Of a stretch of DNA of 32,678 bases, positions 6,187 through 29,846 are shown piece by piece; positions within the stretch are counted from its first letter, which is position 1, and every line of letters begins with the position of its first letter. The notes below the pieces were generated by a model. The model was given only the letters and a program-made list of their open reading frames with translations, ran no database searches and was not told the origin of the DNA. This DNA comes from Methanobacteriota archaeon (lineage in GTDB: Archaea > Thermoplasmatota > Poseidoniia > Poseidoniales > Poseidoniaceae): assembly GCA_018650165.1 (NCBI GenBank), contig JABIGM010000006.1, positions 1 through 32,678 on the forward strand, read 5' to 3'. The translations under genes and the position numbers were made by a program.

Positions 6187-7482
6187 CTAATTGAGGATAT
6201 ATGAGAATAAAATCGGGGCCACAATTGTTGCATCTGACTCAATCATATGCATAGGCGTACCTGGTGCCAATTTACCCCATGTGATCTTCTCACTAGGTGG
6301 AGCGCCAGAATAGCCTCCATAAGAGGTCGTGGATTCTGAGATTTGGGCAAACCAACCCCATAGTGGTGCTTTTTCTTGCATGTCTTGTCTTAGCATTGGA
6401 ACTACGCAGATTGGGAAATCTCCAGCGATTCCTCCTCCGATTTGTAAGAAGCCGATTGGGTGTTCAGCATTCATGTACCAATCAGCTAAGTGCATCATGT
6501 AGTCGATACCGCCTTTGACTGCACTTTGTTCAACATCACCTTTGATACAATGTGCTGCGAAGATATTGCCAAGGGTTGAATCTTCCCAACCTGGGACATA
6601 GACCGGTATTCCTGCATCTCTAGCCGCTATCAGCCAGGAATCAGTTCTTGGAATATCCGCCTCAAGGTCGTCGAGGATAGCCATCAAATGTTCATGCGGG
6701 AATGCAGGACCACTTTGCCATTGTTTCAGAATTTTATCCTCGATATGGCGGATTGCTTCTTCTTCGGGAATACAAGTATCTGTGACACGATTGAATCCTT
6801 TCGAATGTAAATCTGCTTCATCCTGTTCTGATATATTTCTCCAGTTTGGAATTCTTTCGTAGTGTGAGTTTGCAACTAAATTGAATACGTCTTCCTCAAG
6901 GTTCGCCCCTGTACAAGTTATTGCGTGAATTTTCCCTGCTCTAATCATCGGTGCAAGAGAACAACCGATTTCTGCAGTACTCATAGCTCCAGCAAGTGTA
7001 ACCATTAGGCGGCCACCGTCTCTAAGGAATTCGTCTAATGAACGTGCGCAATCTCGAAGAGCACCTGCGTTGAAATGATTGAAATGCCGATCAACGAAAC
7101 CTCGTACACCACCATTTACAGGTTCAGTAAGGAATCTTTCTACTCGCTTTCTACGATTGATATTCATGTTAGGATAATTATCTTGCAACTCCTTTTCTAT
7201 CATCTCAATGATTCTTGCAGGGTCGGTTCCACCACAAGTAAACGCATCAATAGCAAGCCAACCACTTTCTGAATAGCAATGTGCGCTGACATGACTTTCA
7301 TCAAGCAATACAACCGCTGCAAACCCTAATGGAGATACGCTTCCGTCAAAGTGTTCAACATGTGAATGAACGCGACGGGCCCCTGATGCATCAACTGCAT
7401 TTTCCATTAAAGATAGCATCCATGGCCCATCTATTCCGACTGCACCTGTGCAATCGAGCATGATGTGTGCGCCATGTGCCAT
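6187..7482 (-). CDS. Fusion of SpeD-type pyruvoyl decarboxylase and deoxyhypusine synthase-like enzyme
   Basis: One uninterrupted frame of 431 residues joins two polyamine enzymes. Residues 4-115 match class 1 S-adenosylmethionine decarboxylase: GAHIMLD, then DESH with the Glu62-Ser63 cleavage pair (Ser63 becomes the pyruvoyl group), His68, and Cys83 in FTCGG. Residues 118-431 are a complete deoxyhypusine synthase-like domain: GGVRGFVDRHFNHFNAG, VTLAGAMSTAE, TCTGANLEED, PGWEDSTLGNIF, GGGIAGDFP, and WGK with Lys404, equivalent to the lysine that forms the enzyme intermediate. The second domain resembles the DHS-like group common in bacteria more than the usual archaeal DHS. All key residues are present in both halves, so both look active. 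Possible products are decarboxylated SAM (or agmatine, if the SpeD domain has changed substrate) plus deoxyhypusine or homospermidine. The agmatinase gene lies 4 nt upstream. SpeD self-cleavage at Ser63 would detach a short N-terminal beta chain and leave the alpha chain attached to the DHS domain. Confidence 0.93.
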   Translation of the reverse strand: MAHGAHIMLDCTGAVGIDGPWMLSLMENAVDASGARRVHSHVEHFDGSVSPLGFAAVVLLDESHVSAHCYSESGWLAIDAFTCGGTDPARIIEMIEKELQDNYPNMNINRRKRVERFLTEPVNGGVRGFVDRHFNHFNAGALRDCARSLDEFLRDGGRLMVTLAGAMSTAEIGCSLAPMIRAGKIHAITCTGANLEEDVFNLVANSHYERIPNWRNISEQDEADLHSKGFNRVTDTCIPEEEAIRHIEDKILKQWQSGPAFPHEHLMAILDDLEADIPRTDSWLIAARDAGIPVYVPGWEDSTLGNIFAAHCIKGDVEQSAVKGGIDYMMHLADWYMNAEHPIGFLQIGGGIAGDFPICVVPMLRQDMQEKAPLWGWFAQISESTTSYGGYSGAPPSEKITWGKLAPGTPMHMIESDATIVAPILFSYILN

Positions 7483-7486
7483 CTAA

Positions 7487-8377
7487 TCAGCCCCTTTTTG
7501 CAATCGCAGCAGCAGTAATTTTGGTCGCAATCATTGCTGCGGTAAACTGAGTGAGAGGTGTATCTTCTTGTTTTACAATCTCATTAACATCAGCACTGAT
7601 TACATTACATGAACTAAAGAGAGTTTCAATGGTTTGAACTACATGCCAGAATGAAAGACCTCCCGGGACAGGTGTTCCTGTAGCGGGAACTAATGAACCA
7701 TCTAGCCCATCGATATCAATTGTGAGATGTACACAACCTTCAATTTTTGAAATTGATTCAAGCCAACCATCCCAAGCCTTTGCACCTGTGCAAGGACTCA
7801 TCACATCTTTAGCAAACCAAGTATTGATGCGCTCGTCACTCTCTATGTAATCGGACTCTTGTTTCGAATACGCTCTTATTCCTACTTGATGGACAGATAA
7901 TACGCCTTCGTCTAGGGACCTGGAAATAGCGCATGCGTGGGAATAAGGCTCGCCGTCAAGTTCATCGCGCAAATCTGCATGTGCATCGATTTGAACGAGA
8001 GTTACTTTTTCAGGACAGCCTCTGAGAATACCGGGTAGTATTCCATGTTCCCCTCCAAGAAATATTGGAAAAGCATCACGTGCATATTGTTGGGAAGCGT
8101 ATCTGCCAATTCCATCGAGTTGTTCTTGGAGCGTATCTCCTTCGCCATTCCATGGTTCGATGGTATGAATTATTGCGCCAGCAGGAAGCTCTTTGCCTAG
8201 CAAATCATCGTACAATTCTACTTGACCTGAAGCTTCAATACAAGCGGCAGGTCCATCGGCAGTACCCTGTCCATATGAGGTTGTAAGTTCATATGGGATG
8301 GATGCTATGATGATATCGGGATTACCCTTCACATTGGGTAATCCGAGGAAATTACCCTCGCAAAACACCTCATCCAT
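7487..8377 (-). CDS. speB: Agmatinase-family ureohydrolase
   Basis: This is a 296-residue dimanganese hydrolase that most likely cleaves agmatine to putrescine and urea. Metal ligands are all visible: His111 (GGEH), Asp131, His133 and Asp135 (DAHAD), Asp221 and Asp223 (TIDIDGLD). The loop PATGTPVPGGLS (231-242) is the agmatinase-type version of the conserved GTGTPxPGG block. Arginase, guanidinobutyrase or formiminoglutamase activity cannot be excluded from sequence alone. It is the first gene of a two-gene unit: its stop is 4 nt before the start of the SpeD-DHS fusion, with a GGGGCTGA ribosome-binding stretch inside its end. That context strongly favours the polyamine role. Start ATG 8377 is used; a second ATG two codons later would be equally possible. 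Confidence 0.92.
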   Translation of the reverse strand: MDEVFCEGNFLGLPNVKGNPDIIIASIPYELTTSYGQGTADGPAACIEASGQVELYDDLLGKELPAGAIIHTIEPWNGEGDTLQEQLDGIGRYASQQYARDAFPIFLGGEHGILPGILRGCPEKVTLVQIDAHADLRDELDGEPYSHACAISRSLDEGVLSVHQVGIRAYSKQESDYIESDERINTWFAKDVMSPCTGAKAWDGWLESISKIEGCVHLTIDIDGLDGSLVPATGTPVPGGLSFWHVVQTIETLFSSCNVISADVNEIVKQEDTPLTQFTAAMIATKITAAAIAKRG

Positions 8378-8520: not shown

Positions 8521-8943
8521 ATGGGAATGACAATGGCAGAACTAACACAGGCTATTCGCCAACATATCGATATGGAGATGGACCCAGAGGTCGCTTGTGG
8601 CATGGCTGAACACGCACTTGGGTTCTTTGGATTCTATGACCGAATCATCGATAATGCTCTCGAACCGACTGACCGCAACTTGTTTTACATGTTCCAAGAT
8701 TACGATTTACTGACTACTGAGTCTGAGGAAACCACCCTATGGGATGGCCGTGAATGGAGGATTCACTACTGGCGCTTCAAACCAGAACTACGTGAGCGTG
8801 TTGAAGCATACATGTCTCGTAAAACCCAACCAGTGGAAGTTGATCCATTCGGCGATGTATATGGTGACGGCGGTGGAATTTGGATGCGCGATGGCGATAA
8901 ACCAACCAACCCTAATGCATTCACTTCAGACCATTGGGGATGA
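8521..8943 (+). CDS. Small conserved archaeal protein, possibly DUF6015 family
   Basis: The product is a soluble acidic protein of 140 residues with no signal peptide or membrane helix. Its centre, EHALGFFGFYDRIIDNALEP followed by RNLFYMFQDYDLLTTE and LWDGREWRIHYW, matches my recollection of a Thermoplasmatota-restricted family of unknown function (DUF6015); this match is from memory and unverified. The N-terminal half is predicted mostly helical, and the aromatic-rich centre suggests a winged-helix-like or small alpha/beta core. The C-terminal 35 residues are Gly/Asp-rich and probably disordered. The start is ATG 8521 (MGMTMAEL) or ATG 8533. It is followed 46 nt later by the large surface protein on the same strand, so they may share a transcript. 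I assign no function. Confidence 0.75.
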   Translation: MGMTMAELTQAIRQHIDMEMDPEVACGMAEHALGFFGFYDRIIDNALEPTDRNLFYMFQDYDLLTTESEETTLWDGREWRIHYWRFKPELRERVEAYMSRKTQPVEVDPFGDVYGDGGGIWMRDGDKPTNPNAFTSDHWG

Positions 8944-25682: not shown

Positions 25683-25744
25683 CATGATGGCGAAAGGTCA
25701 TAACCGAGCGGAACCGTGTCTTGGGTGTCAGGGGGGTTGTACAT

Positions 25745-27268
25745 ATGGCAAGAAAAGGTGGTGGTGGCCAAAAGAAGAAAGGTGCCCAACAACGAGCAAT
25801 GTACGATGAACTTGACAAGTATCCGGTAATGCCACCGCATGCTTTCGCTCGAATTGTTCGTGATAAAAGGACACTGAACATCATTTACCAAATCATTGAG
25901 CCGCCATTGAATAAGAAAGAACAAGAATGGCGAGATGAGTTATTGGATATTTTCATCCGCTCATTAACAGTAAATGTCGATGAAATTGATGCGGATCCGA
26001 TATCATATCTCCGCACCGCGATGGATAAAGTAATCAAAGCGTACGGAATGAAGGTAAATAAGAAATCAAAATCCAAGTTATTTTACTATCTCCGAAGGGA
26101 TTTAGTTGGATATGGAAAGATGGATGTTCTGATGAACGATGCTAACGTGGAAGATGTATCTCTTGACGGAACTGGAGTTCCAATTTTCGCTTATCACAGA
26201 AAATTCGAATCTGTAGAGACGACCTGTGTCTGGGAAACTGACCATGAATTGGAATCTTATGTTATCAAATTGGCACAGCGTTGTGGTAAGCACATATCCG
26301 TTGCAGACCCGTTACTGGATGCTACGTTAATGGATGGTTCGAGAATTGTTATGAAATTGGGGCGTGAAGTTTCGACCCGTGGTTCAGCATTCTGTATTCG
26401 AAGATTCAAGGACGACCCGTTCTCACCTTGTGACATCATTGCATTCAGAACGCTTTCTTCATTGATGGGGGCATACCTTTGGGTTGCATTCCAGAATGAA
26501 GTTCCAATGCTATTCGTAGGAGGTACTGCATCTGGAAAGACTACAACTCTCAATGCAATGTGTATCTTTATTCCATGGCAGATGAAGATTGTCAGTATTG
26601 AATCCACCCGTGAAGTAAACATTCCACAGCCTAACTGGGTCCCTGGTTTAACCCGCCAAGGATTCGGTGGAGAATCCAATGAAGGAGAAATTGGAGAATT
26701 CGAACTGCTAAAGGCTGCCCTGCGTGAGCGACCAGAATACATCATCGTGGGTGAAATTCGTGGTGCTGAAGCATATGTTCTGTTCCAGGCAATGGCTACG
26801 GGACACTGCGCATATTCTACAGTGCACGCAGATTCGGTTCCTTCGCTAGTACACCGTCTTGAGAACAAACCGATTGATATTCCTCGTGTTCTGTTACCTG
26901 CACTTGAAGCATGTGTTATTCAAATCCAGACACGTATCAACGGACGACGTGTTAGAAGAAGTAAGCAAATTGTAGAAATTGTTGGAATTGATCCAAACTC
27001 GATGGAGATAATTACCAATGAAGTATTCCGATGGAATGTTGCCAATGATGATTTTATATTCTCAGGAAAATCATATGTCTTAGAGAAGATTATGGTCAAG
27101 ATCAATTACAGTCAAGATGAGATGAGAAGAGAACTTCGTACTAGGAAACGTATTCTCGAATGGATGGTACTAAATGACATACGTAAGGCAGACCAAGTCA
27201 GTCAAATAATCACCGAATATTATGTCCGGCCACACGAAATCTTAGCACGTGTAGACGGACTTCGATGA
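25745..27268 (+). CDS. flaI: FlaI/TadA-type secretion ATPase
   Basis: This is a 507-residue hexameric motor ATPase of the archaellum / type IV pilus / type II secretion superfamily. Walker A is GGTASGKTTT (259-268), the Asp-box region is VSIESTREVNIPQP (283-296), Walker B is RPEYIIVGEIRG (329-340), and the His box is GHCAYSTVHAD (353-363). The N-terminal 120 residues are the variable partner-binding domain, starting with a Gly/Lys-rich tail. It is the first gene of a five-gene operon with two platform proteins and two pilin-like genes. Archaellum accessory genes (FlaH, FlaX) are absent, so an adhesive or secretion pilus is at least as likely as an archaellum. ATG 25745 (MARKGGGG) is chosen over an upstream TTG/GTG. 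Confidence 0.92.
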   Translation: MARKGGGGQKKKGAQQRAMYDELDKYPVMPPHAFARIVRDKRTLNIIYQIIEPPLNKKEQEWRDELLDIFIRSLTVNVDEIDADPISYLRTAMDKVIKAYGMKVNKKSKSKLFYYLRRDLVGYGKMDVLMNDANVEDVSLDGTGVPIFAYHRKFESVETTCVWETDHELESYVIKLAQRCGKHISVADPLLDATLMDGSRIVMKLGREVSTRGSAFCIRRFKDDPFSPCDIIAFRTLSSLMGAYLWVAFQNEVPMLFVGGTASGKTTTLNAMCIFIPWQMKIVSIESTREVNIPQPNWVPGLTRQGFGGESNEGEIGEFELLKAALRERPEYIIVGEIRGAEAYVLFQAMATGHCAYSTVHADSVPSLVHRLENKPIDIPRVLLPALEACVIQIQTRINGRRVRRSKQIVEIVGIDPNSMEIITNEVFRWNVANDDFIFSGKSYVLEKIMVKINYSQDEMRRELRTRKRILEWMVLNDIRKADQVSQIITEYYVRPHEILARVDGLR

Positions 27269-27299
27269 TTAATTAATTTGGATTTAGGAGGGGTGATGA

Positions 27300-28319
27300 A
27301 TGGAATTAACTGCTTGGCAGAAAATTTGTCACCGCATTCTTGGTAAAGCATTCAAGAAAAAAGCCCGTTCCGACCAAGTGCTTTCTGATAACTTAGTAAA
27401 AGGAAACATTGGGGTAATGCCAGAAGTTTATCTCGCCCAAGTGTTCGTTACAACCGTTGCAGTCACTGTAATTTGTGGAGTTTTGCTAACAGCCATCTTT
27501 TTGCCAGAAATCGGCTTAATTGATTGGTATGAGTCACGGCCAGATACTTCTACAGCATTAGCTTGCTACGAGTGGGAATATTGGAATGCAGACCTTGTTG
27601 ATGAGACATTAGAAAGTCGCGGTTGCCCATATTTCAAATATATGGAATTCCCTGTATTTGGAGCCATTGGACTTCCTGTTTTACTCGGATTTATAGTTCC
27701 ATTTGGGACATACAAATATCTCAAAGGTGCAGCCGGAAGAGCAGCAAAACTTCGTGGTGTAACGCTAGAGAAGTTTTTGCCATATGCGGCATCTTATACT
27801 GCTGCAATGGCTGCAGCAAATGCCACACCACACAAGATTTTCCGTTCTTTAGCATTGAATGAAGATATCTATGGCGAGATAGCTTATGATTCAGCAATGA
27901 TTTATCGAGATGTAACTTTACTCGGTTTTGATTTGCTGACTGCGATGAAAATGGCTGTTGACCGAGCAGCATCCCCCTGGATGACTGAGTTCTTCCAAGG
28001 AATGGTTGGAACATTAACTGCTGGAGGCTCACTCAAACTGTACTTTTTGAATCGTGCTGAACACTACATGCGTGAAAATCGTACAAGACTTCATGACTTC
28101 CTAGAATCACTTGCAATGCTAGCGGAATCATATATTGTGGTTGCAGTTGCTATGCCACTGTTCCTGATTGTAATGCTCGTCATTATGTTCTGGGTTAGCG
28201 GTGCAGGTGCCCAAATGGAAGAGAGCACTTTGTATCTTGTTGTTCTAGTGGTTCTACCAATGATTCATGGACTATTTGCGTTCATTGTATGGTCCTCAAG
28301 TGAAGAACAAAAAATGTGA
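27300..28319 (+). CDS. flaJ: FlaJ/TadC-type platform membrane protein, first copy
   Basis: This is a 339-residue polytopic protein with a type II secretion F domain. A membrane helix lies at about residues 47-66. An exported loop of about 60 residues follows, with cysteines in ACYEWEY and RGCPYF. A second helix lies near 111-130. Next comes a cytoplasmic helical domain (about 140-270: LEKFLPYAASYTAAMAAANATPHKIF and later RLHDFLESLAMLAES), and two terminal helices. It would sit in the membrane over the FlaI hexamer. GGAGG lies 8 nt before ATG 27300. It is followed 15 nt later by a second, larger protein of the same kind, so the two probably form a heteromeric platform. Gene symbols are by family only. 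Confidence 0.85.
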   Translation: MELTAWQKICHRILGKAFKKKARSDQVLSDNLVKGNIGVMPEVYLAQVFVTTVAVTVICGVLLTAIFLPEIGLIDWYESRPDTSTALACYEWEYWNADLVDETLESRGCPYFKYMEFPVFGAIGLPVLLGFIVPFGTYKYLKGAAGRAAKLRGVTLEKFLPYAASYTAAMAAANATPHKIFRSLALNEDIYGEIAYDSAMIYRDVTLLGFDLLTAMKMAVDRAASPWMTEFFQGMVGTLTAGGSLKLYFLNRAEHYMRENRTRLHDFLESLAMLAESYIVVAVAMPLFLIVMLVIMFWVSGAGAQMEESTLYLVVLVVLPMIHGLFAFIVWSSSEEQKM

Positions 28320-28334
28320 TTAGGAGGTGAAATA

Positions 28335-29846
28335 ATGGCGCGTAAAAAAGAGAAAATAACAGTAAAACTCGATTTACCAAAAGACGATTCGACTCTCACT
28401 AAATTATATGCGATTCTTGCAGTCAGTATTTTCTTCGGATTAGCATGTTTCACCTTTTGGATTACAAATTCGCATTTCACAACTGCAGCGAATGGACAAC
28501 CACTCTTCGTCAACACGTTTTGCAAGTACGATTCAACTTATATTCCCACATTTGCTGATAACGAATCATGTTCAATATTGAAGGATGAACCTGATGTATT
28601 GATTATGGAACCTGAAAAAAATTGGGTGGAATTCCTAGCCCTCGGTCAGATGTTTGATGTTCCTGGAATGGATGAGAACGTTTCTGATGTTAGGCCTGCC
28701 CAACCACTGGTCGGTACCTGTTCAGTAACAACTGCTGTTCCTTCTGATTATAATTTTATTATCAATGACCCAGAAGGTAAGGAGTTGCAAAGATATAGCG
28801 GCAATACCCATGCTAAAGGGGACAAATGTGAACTTCGCATTGAAAACATGGAGCGGGGAAACTTGTACCAGGTAGTGATTTTTTCTGAAGAGGAAGTACA
28901 AGATGCATCTTACACCCTTGAAATGGATTACTATGATGGAATTCCAGAAAATATGAACAACAAATCACAATGGATTGGTCCGGAAGTTGAGTTAGGTGGA
29001 TTTTCTCTGCGTCCAACTATTTTCCTGAACTTCTTCGGCCTTGGATTCTTCATCACATTTTGGCCAGCCTCCTTTTATTGGGATAAAGTCACGGAGAAGA
29101 CTAACCGTATGGAAGCGAAATTCCCCGATTTCCTTAGAGATCTTGCAGAGTATTGGAAGGGAGGTCTGTCCATGACAGTGGCAGTTCAAACGCTGGCGAC
29201 GAGTGAATACGGTGCTCTGAACCACGAAGTCAAAAAAATGAGTGACCAATTATCATGGGGTGTTGCATTTGGTGACGTTATCGAAATGTTCGCAGTAAGA
29301 GTCGGAACACCTCTCGTTATGCGTGCGATTTCACTAATTTCTGAAGCGAATAGAGCCGGTGGAAAGATTTCTGATATTCTTGTTACTGCTGCTAACGATA
29401 GTCGTGAAATTAAGTTCCTTGAAGGGGAACGTAAACGTACAATTTCCTCATATATCTCAGTTATTTGGACTTCATACGGTGTTTTCCTAGGTGTTATTGT
29501 AGTTCTTGCTAAGGTTTTCATTCCAGCGATTGCAGGTTCCAATTCCGAACCGAGTGACGATGATGCTGCAGGTGGAGGACAACAGTTGGGTAACATGGTT
29601 ATCCGTAATATCGAACCACTGTTTTTCTTGACAATTTTCTATTATGGTGTTACTATGCAAGCATTGGGTAATGGCTTAATGGCTGGTTTGATGGCTACTG
29701 GCAGATTTACCACAGGAATGAAAATCTCTGGAATGATGATTCTATTAGCAATGGTCTGTTTTAATTTCATTGTATTTACTCCTGATCTGATTGGTATCAC
29801 TACTTTGCCTGCACTAAAACCAGCAGCAGGTACATTCTCACCATGA
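28335..29846 (+). CDS. flaJ: FlaJ/TadC-type platform protein with large exported domain
   Basis: The 503-residue product starts with a basic cytoplasmic tail and a membrane helix at about 24-44. An exported domain of about 180 residues contains five cysteines (FCKYD, SCSIL, GTCSV, KCELR among them). A second helix lies near 227-248. The T2SF cytoplasmic domain runs from about 258 to 370 (FPDFLRDLAEYWKGGLSM, then LISEANRAGGKISDIL), and three or so helices end the protein. GGAGGTGA precedes ATG 28335, the clearest ribosome-binding site in the operon. The exported domain is far larger than in ordinary FlaJ and may contact pilins or the surface layer. Confidence 0.87.
   Translation: MARKKEKITVKLDLPKDDSTLTKLYAILAVSIFFGLACFTFWITNSHFTTAANGQPLFVNTFCKYDSTYIPTFADNESCSILKDEPDVLIMEPEKNWVEFLALGQMFDVPGMDENVSDVRPAQPLVGTCSVTTAVPSDYNFIINDPEGKELQRYSGNTHAKGDKCELRIENMERGNLYQVVIFSEEEVQDASYTLEMDYYDGIPENMNNKSQWIGPEVELGGFSLRPTIFLNFFGLGFFITFWPASFYWDKVTEKTNRMEAKFPDFLRDLAEYWKGGLSMTVAVQTLATSEYGALNHEVKKMSDQLSWGVAFGDVIEMFAVRVGTPLVMRAISLISEANRAGGKISDILVTAANDSREIKFLEGERKRTISSYISVIWTSYGVFLGVIVVLAKVFIPAIAGSNSEPSDDDAAGGGQQLGNMVIRNIEPLFFLTIFYYGVTMQALGNGLMAGLMATGRFTTGMKISGMMILLAMVCFNFIVFTPDLIGITTLPALKPAAGTFSP

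Follow-up and report, generated by a model that had tools for sequence, protein, structure and literature searches.

A natural fusion of a SpeD-type domain with a deoxyhypusine synthase-fold domain in Poseidoniales that may join the first and last steps of homospermidine synthesis

The stretch of DNA analyzed here, hereafter the window, is 32,678 nucleotides long and comes from an archaeon that likely belongs to the Poseidoniales (marine group II), since its nearest named kin are Candidatus Poseidoniaceae and Euryarchaeota MAGs. Poseidoniales are widespread in surface oceans. On the minus strand, positions 6187..7482 hold a single uninterrupted frame of 431 residues, in which domain profile matches place a SpeD-type domain ahead of a deoxyhypusine synthase (DHS)-fold domain. 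The first (residues 1-117; 7132..7482, minus strand) is likely a pyruvoyl-dependent arginine decarboxylase (SpeDA), and the second (residues 128-431; 6190..7101, minus strand) is likely a homospermidine synthase of the SpeY type. They are joined by the linker LTEPVNGGVR (residues 118-127; 7102..7131, minus strand). Four bases before the ATG of the fused gene stops a speB-like gene on the same strand (7487..8377), which encodes a ureohydrolase of 296 residues, likely an agmatinase. The speB-like protein matches the Arginase family (PF00491) with 163.3 bits and carries DAHAD and TIDID motifs, which we take to be metal-binding. Its best model is the agmatinase model TIGR01230, where it scores 161.1 against a cut-off of 174.3, and it is the sole Arginase-family match in the window's genome. 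Elsewhere in the window, a DUF6015 protein (8521-8943; 314 bits over its whole length) is divergent from speB, and archaellum- or pilus-type genes occupy 25721-29846, with a FlaI-like ATPase (395 bits, cut-off 550) and, one directly after the other, two proteins of weak similarity to ArlJ/FlaJ.

The earlier note on this DNA had proposed that SpeD- and DHS-type domains are naturally fused in one frame, and this is borne out by related genomes. Within the same genus (g1), the whole protein lies in one frame in 24 of 27 genomes, the window's own included, and the other 23 intact copies are 78-93% identical to the window protein. A 25th copy, in genome G212, is split by contig ends, and the fused gene was not found in G182 (76% complete) or G294 (60% complete). 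Among the matches listed for 170 genomes of the family, at least 35 contain the uninterrupted fusion, distributed over five genera (24 genomes in g1, five in g9, and two each in g7, g10, and g6). Furthermore, both Pfam domains are found on 93 of the best 120 protein-collection hits, and the same frame is present in many metagenome proteins.

These data bear on the simplest objection, namely that the frame reflects an assembly error or a chance read-through of two genes. Such an error could be suspected from relatives in other genera, where the two domains are encoded by two genes with one stop between them. The recurrence of the frame in 24 of 27 genus genomes and in metagenome proteins argues otherwise, as does the junction itself: no in-frame ATG, GTG, or TTG lies near it in 23 of the 35 fused genes, including that of the window, and at least one does in the other 12. 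In addition, nonsynonymous change is low in both halves (dN of 0.09-0.21 in the SpeD part and 0.04-0.16 in the SpeY part) across 18 genus pairs, a comparison that left out five fused genus copies of other length and in which the synonymous divergence of every pair either exceeded 1 or had no defined value, so that the low dN is usable and dN/dS is not. We therefore regard an artifact as extremely improbable. Since the junction in the window has no in-frame ATG, GTG, or TTG, production of a separate SpeY chain from this gene is also unlikely.

The family contains what may be the steps that led to the fusion. In other genera, the speD-type and speY-type genes are adjacent but separate. Among the matches listed, at least 17 further genomes (18 places) in g2, g3, and g11 have exactly one stop between both domains in one frame, and in 35 separate pairs that were read base by base, the SpeY match begins 3-17 bases after the stop, with the SpeY start codon there. 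The fusion therefore likely arose when two neighboring genes lost the stop codon that divided them. The earlier note had named two-gene relatives with an intervening stop as evidence against a genuine fusion; such relatives do exist in other genera, every complete copy found in the genus is fused, and we read the two-gene relatives as showing how the fusion likely arose, which does not undo it. We also asked whether the fusion arose more than once. Between the RF that closes the SpeD part and the HFNA motif of SpeY, the fused proteins of g1, g9, and g7 have 18 residues, those of g6 have 24, and those of g10 have 34. Likewise, a quick tree of the SpeD and SpeY parts of 70 copies, with the linker excluded and several long branches, placed the fused copies in two clades, {g1, g9, g7} and {g6, g10}. 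A single fused clade was not rejected (p-AU of 0.597), and the constrained tree scored even higher; the fusion may thus have arisen once or several times. One family of marine archaea thus presents the pair as separate genes, as in-frame neighbors with one stop, and as a fixed fusion, with the steps of a fusion side by side.

The SpeD-type domain has what self-cleavage is expected to need, as the earlier note had held. Ser63 (7294..7296), His68 (7279-7281), and Cys83 (7234-7236), all on the minus strand, are kept in every aligned copy, 35 fused and 35 separate; together with the SpeD fold, they are the features that define the class 1b SpeD superfamily. Ser63 is the predicted pyruvoyl precursor, and cleavage before it would release a beta chain of residues 1-62 (7297..7482, minus strand), as judged from the sequence and from the T. 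maritima residues given in the available text of PMC10407285. The fold and these processing residues would suit a true AdoMet decarboxylase equally, and the earlier note had accordingly taken this half to supply decarboxylated AdoMet, with the DHS half using spermidine for aIF5A or homospermidine. The substrate, however, is better judged from other features. A proline that the same source, as far as its available sections go, describes as fully conserved in true AdoMet decarboxylases and not conserved in SpeDA corresponds, on our reading of its text and of the WPE motif in the aligned sequences, to position 71 here. This Pro71 is absent from all 70 aligned copies, 57 of which have Ser; position 70 is Tyr in all 70, and T. 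maritima and Aquifex have Trp-Pro at 70-71. Specifically for this order, two purified SpeD homologs of Poseidoniales or marine group II, whose genes lie beside speB and speY, are reported to decarboxylate L-arginine, with kcat/Km values (per M per s) of 180 and 64; particularly low activities are described for the marine SpeDA proteins (PMC10407285, available sections). According to the same sections, neither protein was active with ornithine or lysine, and neither restored spermidine synthesis to E. coli that lacked speD.

Profile scores do not settle the matter. Against the AdoMet decarboxylase model TIGR03330 (cut-off 75.65), the window domain scores 70.2 and the fused copy at L152 scores 59.7, and all three stand-alone Poseidoniales copies scanned score 79.2-83.5. 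Because those stand-alone relatives exceed its cut-off, which on its face favors an AdoMet decarboxylase, the model does not discriminate; it is a weak guide and does not exclude that activity for the domain. Taken together, the lost proline and the published substrate of relatives from the same order suggest that the SpeD domain likely cleaves itself and decarboxylates arginine with a pyruvoyl cofactor. By contrast, the Trp-Pro motif is present in a stray SpeD of genome G212, on the 3.3-kb contig C47 (L004:1501-1815), where it scores 108.6 against the cut-off of 75.65; it is perhaps contamination or a gained gene.

The second half of the protein is a DHS-fold domain with its catalytic lysine in place. 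Lys404 (6271..6273, minus strand), the equivalent of human DHS Lys329 and the predicted imine-forming residue, is present in all 70 aligned copies, and the equivalents of human Glu323, Trp327, and Asp238 are also kept. Among the sequences compared, the closest lie outside canonical DHS. Specifically, identity to the domain is 60-67% for six DHS-like proteins of bacteria or DPANN (from Planctomycetota, Bdellovibrio, two Bacteroidota/Rhodothermota-type organisms, Acidobacteriota, and a Micrarchaeota MAG) and 65.5% for a stand-alone copy from marine group II, as against about 25% for the organism's own DHS. Four pocket residues of human DHS are replaced: Asp243 by Asn306, His288 by Asp355 (a position that adjoins an alignment gap), Asp313 by Tyr388, and Asp316 by Tyr391. 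We take His288 and Asp313 to be substrate-site residues. The other two, Asp243 and Asp316, line the substrate site according to the available text of PMC10981699. Among the Poseidoniales copies, Asn306 is found in 67 of 70, Tyr388 in 68 of 70, and Asp355 and Tyr391 in all, and the four replacements are shared by the six aligned bacterial and DPANN relatives. As discriminators of substrate, Asp243 and Asp316 were dropped, since both positions vary in the organism's own accepted DHS too, which has Leu at the Asp316 position. Neither the fused domain nor its kin that were scanned pass any NCBIfam cut-off of the DHS type; the fused domain scores best on NF001980, "homospermidine biosynthesis protein" (118.2 against 450), followed by the DHS model (97.7 against 364) and the caldomycin-synthase model NF002699 (80.5 against 500). 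SpeY is described as making homospermidine from putrescine (PMC9992855, as far as its text was available), and from its sequence relatives we predict that the DHS-fold domain is likely a homospermidine synthase of this kind.

The genome around the fusion speaks to whether spermidine is involved. A profile search for spermidine synthase (Spermine_synth) gave no match in the window's genome, which is 80% complete; the same search gave a match in 11 of 14 known genomes. Across the genus, two of 27 genomes had a partial, weak match, one narrowly above the cut-off with an E of 4e-5 and the other with an E of 7e-4, and nspC, for carboxynorspermidine decarboxylase, matched in none of the 27. With genus genomes 55-91% complete, single absences mean little, but the 25 of 27 together carry weight, and no credible spermidine synthase was found in the genus. 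Furthermore, the organism has its own DHS on another contig, which at 367.8 bits passes the NCBI equivalog cut-off of NF002294 (350); canonical-type DS matches of 295-312 bits were found in 20 of the 27 genus genomes, partial ones in two, and none in five. This separate, canonical DHS would serve aIF5A. The idea that one chain both supplies and consumes spermidine is thus rejected, for want of a credible spermidine synthase match in the genomes searched and in view of the published arginine substrate of the relatives (PMC10407285, available sections). With that substrate, the changed DHS pocket, and the separate canonical DHS all against it, an AdoMet decarboxylase feeding a spermidine-consuming synthase now seems to us very unlikely; what survives of the purpose proposed in the earlier note is its alternative guess of homospermidine, which our analysis supports.

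The separate DHS weighs on a further possibility as well. In addition, the clade of the fused domain consists mostly of bacterial proteins, and to our knowledge bacteria have no aIF5A. Both points argue against a DHS-fold half that modifies aIF5A with a butyl moiety taken from agmatine or putrescine, a modification that SpeB would then complete on the protein itself. Such a scheme is among the models proposed for Haloferax volcanii, where an agmatinase-like gene is clustered with the DHS and aIF5A genes and the polyamine pool is rich in agmatine (PMC5178350, in the part available). For the fusion, we give it very little credence.

Gene neighborhood suggests a link between the fusion and agmatine metabolism. 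At all 35 fused loci, speB lies upstream on the same strand; it is cut by the contig end in L040 and is in two pieces in L043. The fused loci thus show the combination by which SpeDA clusters are recognized, that is, speB or aguA/aguB together with speY. Within the order's other family (f2), 14 speDA-speY loci were read, and at 13 of them no speB match lies within a flank of about 1.5 kb (L007, L008, L010, L012, L013, L015, L017, L021-L024, L031, and L032), L014 being the exception. At L164 (G232, g11), speB is on the opposite strand behind the speDA-speY pair, unlike at the other f1 loci that were read.

A neighboring ureohydrolase is compatible with two orders of reaction. SpeB could act on agmatine before the synthase, or it could act last, in which case the SpeD domain would make agmatine, the DHS-fold domain would condense two agmatines to 1,9-bis(guanidino)-5-azanonane (caldomycin), and SpeB would remove both guanidines to leave homospermidine. 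The latter order has a precedent in Thermus thermophilus, where CdmS couples two agmatines and a ureohydrolase completes the pathway (PMC10981699, available text). It would also make the fused steps consecutive, as a SpeDA-SpeY fusion skips SpeB, and neither CdmS nor the fused domain has the acids that correspond to human Asp243 and Asp316. Their loss does not identify such an enzyme, however, given the Leu at the Asp316 position of the organism's own DHS, and the fused domain falls far below the caldomycin-synthase cut-off (80.5 against 500). A plasmid search for curated reference enzymes hit 14 records; of two proteins scanned, the one in the caldomycin-synthase family, from Trichormus, scores 591.8 bits (cut-off 500) and shares no more than 28% identity with the fused domain.

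The distribution of agmatine-consuming enzymes offers a further comparison. This SpeY clade is also found at 56 non-Poseidoniales loci, and for 50 of these we searched the genomes for the agmatine deiminase and Arginase families. An Arginase-family match was found in 41 of the 50 and an agmatine deiminase match in 26, 17 of them above 300 bits, a line drawn after seeing the list. Both families occur in ten of these 17 genomes, which do not discriminate. The other seven (G329, G330, G337, G344, G350, G364, and G365) have no Arginase-family match, an absence that is soft as the completeness of the genomes was not given. With no ureohydrolase match in these seven, agmatine would reach putrescine via the deiminase, and SpeY would then take putrescine. 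In G330 (L104), a gene of the arginine decarboxylase type directly precedes speY. Moreover, speDA-speY is reported together with aguA/aguB in Gimesia and in a Diapherotrites archaeon (PMC10407285, available sections). Given the seven deiminase-only genomes, these clusters, and the description of SpeY as acting on putrescine, we consider putrescine a likelier substrate of SpeY than agmatine, and condensation of two agmatines in the fusion unlikely. Frames were listed for 28 of the 56 non-Poseidoniales loci, and a PLP decarboxylase adjoins speY in six of nine bacterial loci that had been chosen for large neighboring genes, compared with none of seven other loci, a pattern that is supportive only. 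Two of the loci are of note in their own right. A deltaproteobacterial SpeY-type gene (L123:4638-5963) lies in a frame of 441 residues, the N terminus of which extends some 120 residues beyond that of its kin, and no SpeD match was found there at an E of 1e-4. In a Micrarchaeota genome (L139:2913-4862), a gene of the pyruvate-ferredoxin-oxidoreductase beta type, interrupted by an intein that has LAGLIDADG and splicing domains, stands beside a stand-alone speY.

Our preferred reading, which we hold to be probable, is that the fusion combines a SpeDA arginine decarboxylase with a SpeY homospermidine synthase as the first and last steps of one pathway, and that the adjacent SpeB performs the middle step. 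The chain would fold and cleave itself before Ser63 into a beta chain of 62 residues and an alpha chain of 369 residues, the latter with the pyruvoyl cofactor at its N terminus and the SpeY synthase domain at its C terminus. Arginine would be converted to agmatine at the SpeD site, a decarboxylation that is published for stand-alone relatives (PMC10407285, available sections). SpeB would then turn agmatine into putrescine between the two fused steps, and two putrescines would be joined to homospermidine at the SpeY site in an NAD-dependent reaction through an imine on Lys404. Counting against this reading is that SpeB's step would fall between the two steps that are fused.

The likely homospermidine pathway whose ends are joined here in Poseidoniales would need neither AdoMet nor PLP. 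More broadly, our findings make it possible to test which compound supplies the deoxyhypusine of aIF5A when an archaeon seems to lack the means to make spermidine. A tentative answer, possible but to our minds less than probable, is that no spermidine is made at all: SpeB would be bound between the two activities, homospermidine would form with no need for AdoMet or PLP, and from it the separate DHS would take the aminobutyl group for aIF5A. If so, the alpha chain left by processing would be an enzyme of the DHS fold with a pyruvoyl cofactor as its own N terminus.

What may be new here is the fused form; its parts and the cluster had already been described as individual genes (Li et al. 2023, PMC10407285, as far as its available text goes). 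The fused form was not found in the open-licence PMC papers searched, and the available sections of PMC10407285, with regard to SpeD-SpeD fusions, report no fusion of SpeD from extant archaea. A few of the best 120 protein-collection hits carry a database name, and these names read "deoxyhypusine synthase," which is likely misleading for the fused protein.

Several known systems resemble the fusion in part. By the description in the available sections of PMC10407285, the stand-alone SpeDA proteins of Poseidoniales (DAC51064 and AIF02979) come from the same order and have the same neighbors, speB and speY, and the loss of the AdoMet decarboxylase proline reported there for SpeDA as a group is seen here in 70 of 70 copies; SpeDA is a separate gene there, whereas here it is fused to a SpeY-type domain. 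The DHS fold, the catalytic lysine, and the polyamine cluster are shared with SpeY, the name used for the gene in Poseidoniales clusters in that source, but unlike stand-alone SpeY, the domain is here fused at its N terminus to a pyruvoyl-type decarboxylase. CdmS of Thermus thermophilus (PMC10981699, available text) is likewise homologous to DHS and works together with a ureohydrolase on the way from agmatine to homospermidine, yet it is not fused and, by NCBIfam score, belongs to another subfamily, the fused domain missing NF002699. The SpeD-SpeDC two-decarboxylase fusions described in PMC10407285, again in its available sections, are also natural fusions of the SpeD family with a processing site inside a longer chain; there the partner is another SpeD, and here it is a DHS-fold synthase. 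Finally, canonical archaeal DHS (NF002294) shares the fold and the catalytic lysine with the fused domain, which differs in its pocket residues and is about 25% identical to the organism's own DHS.
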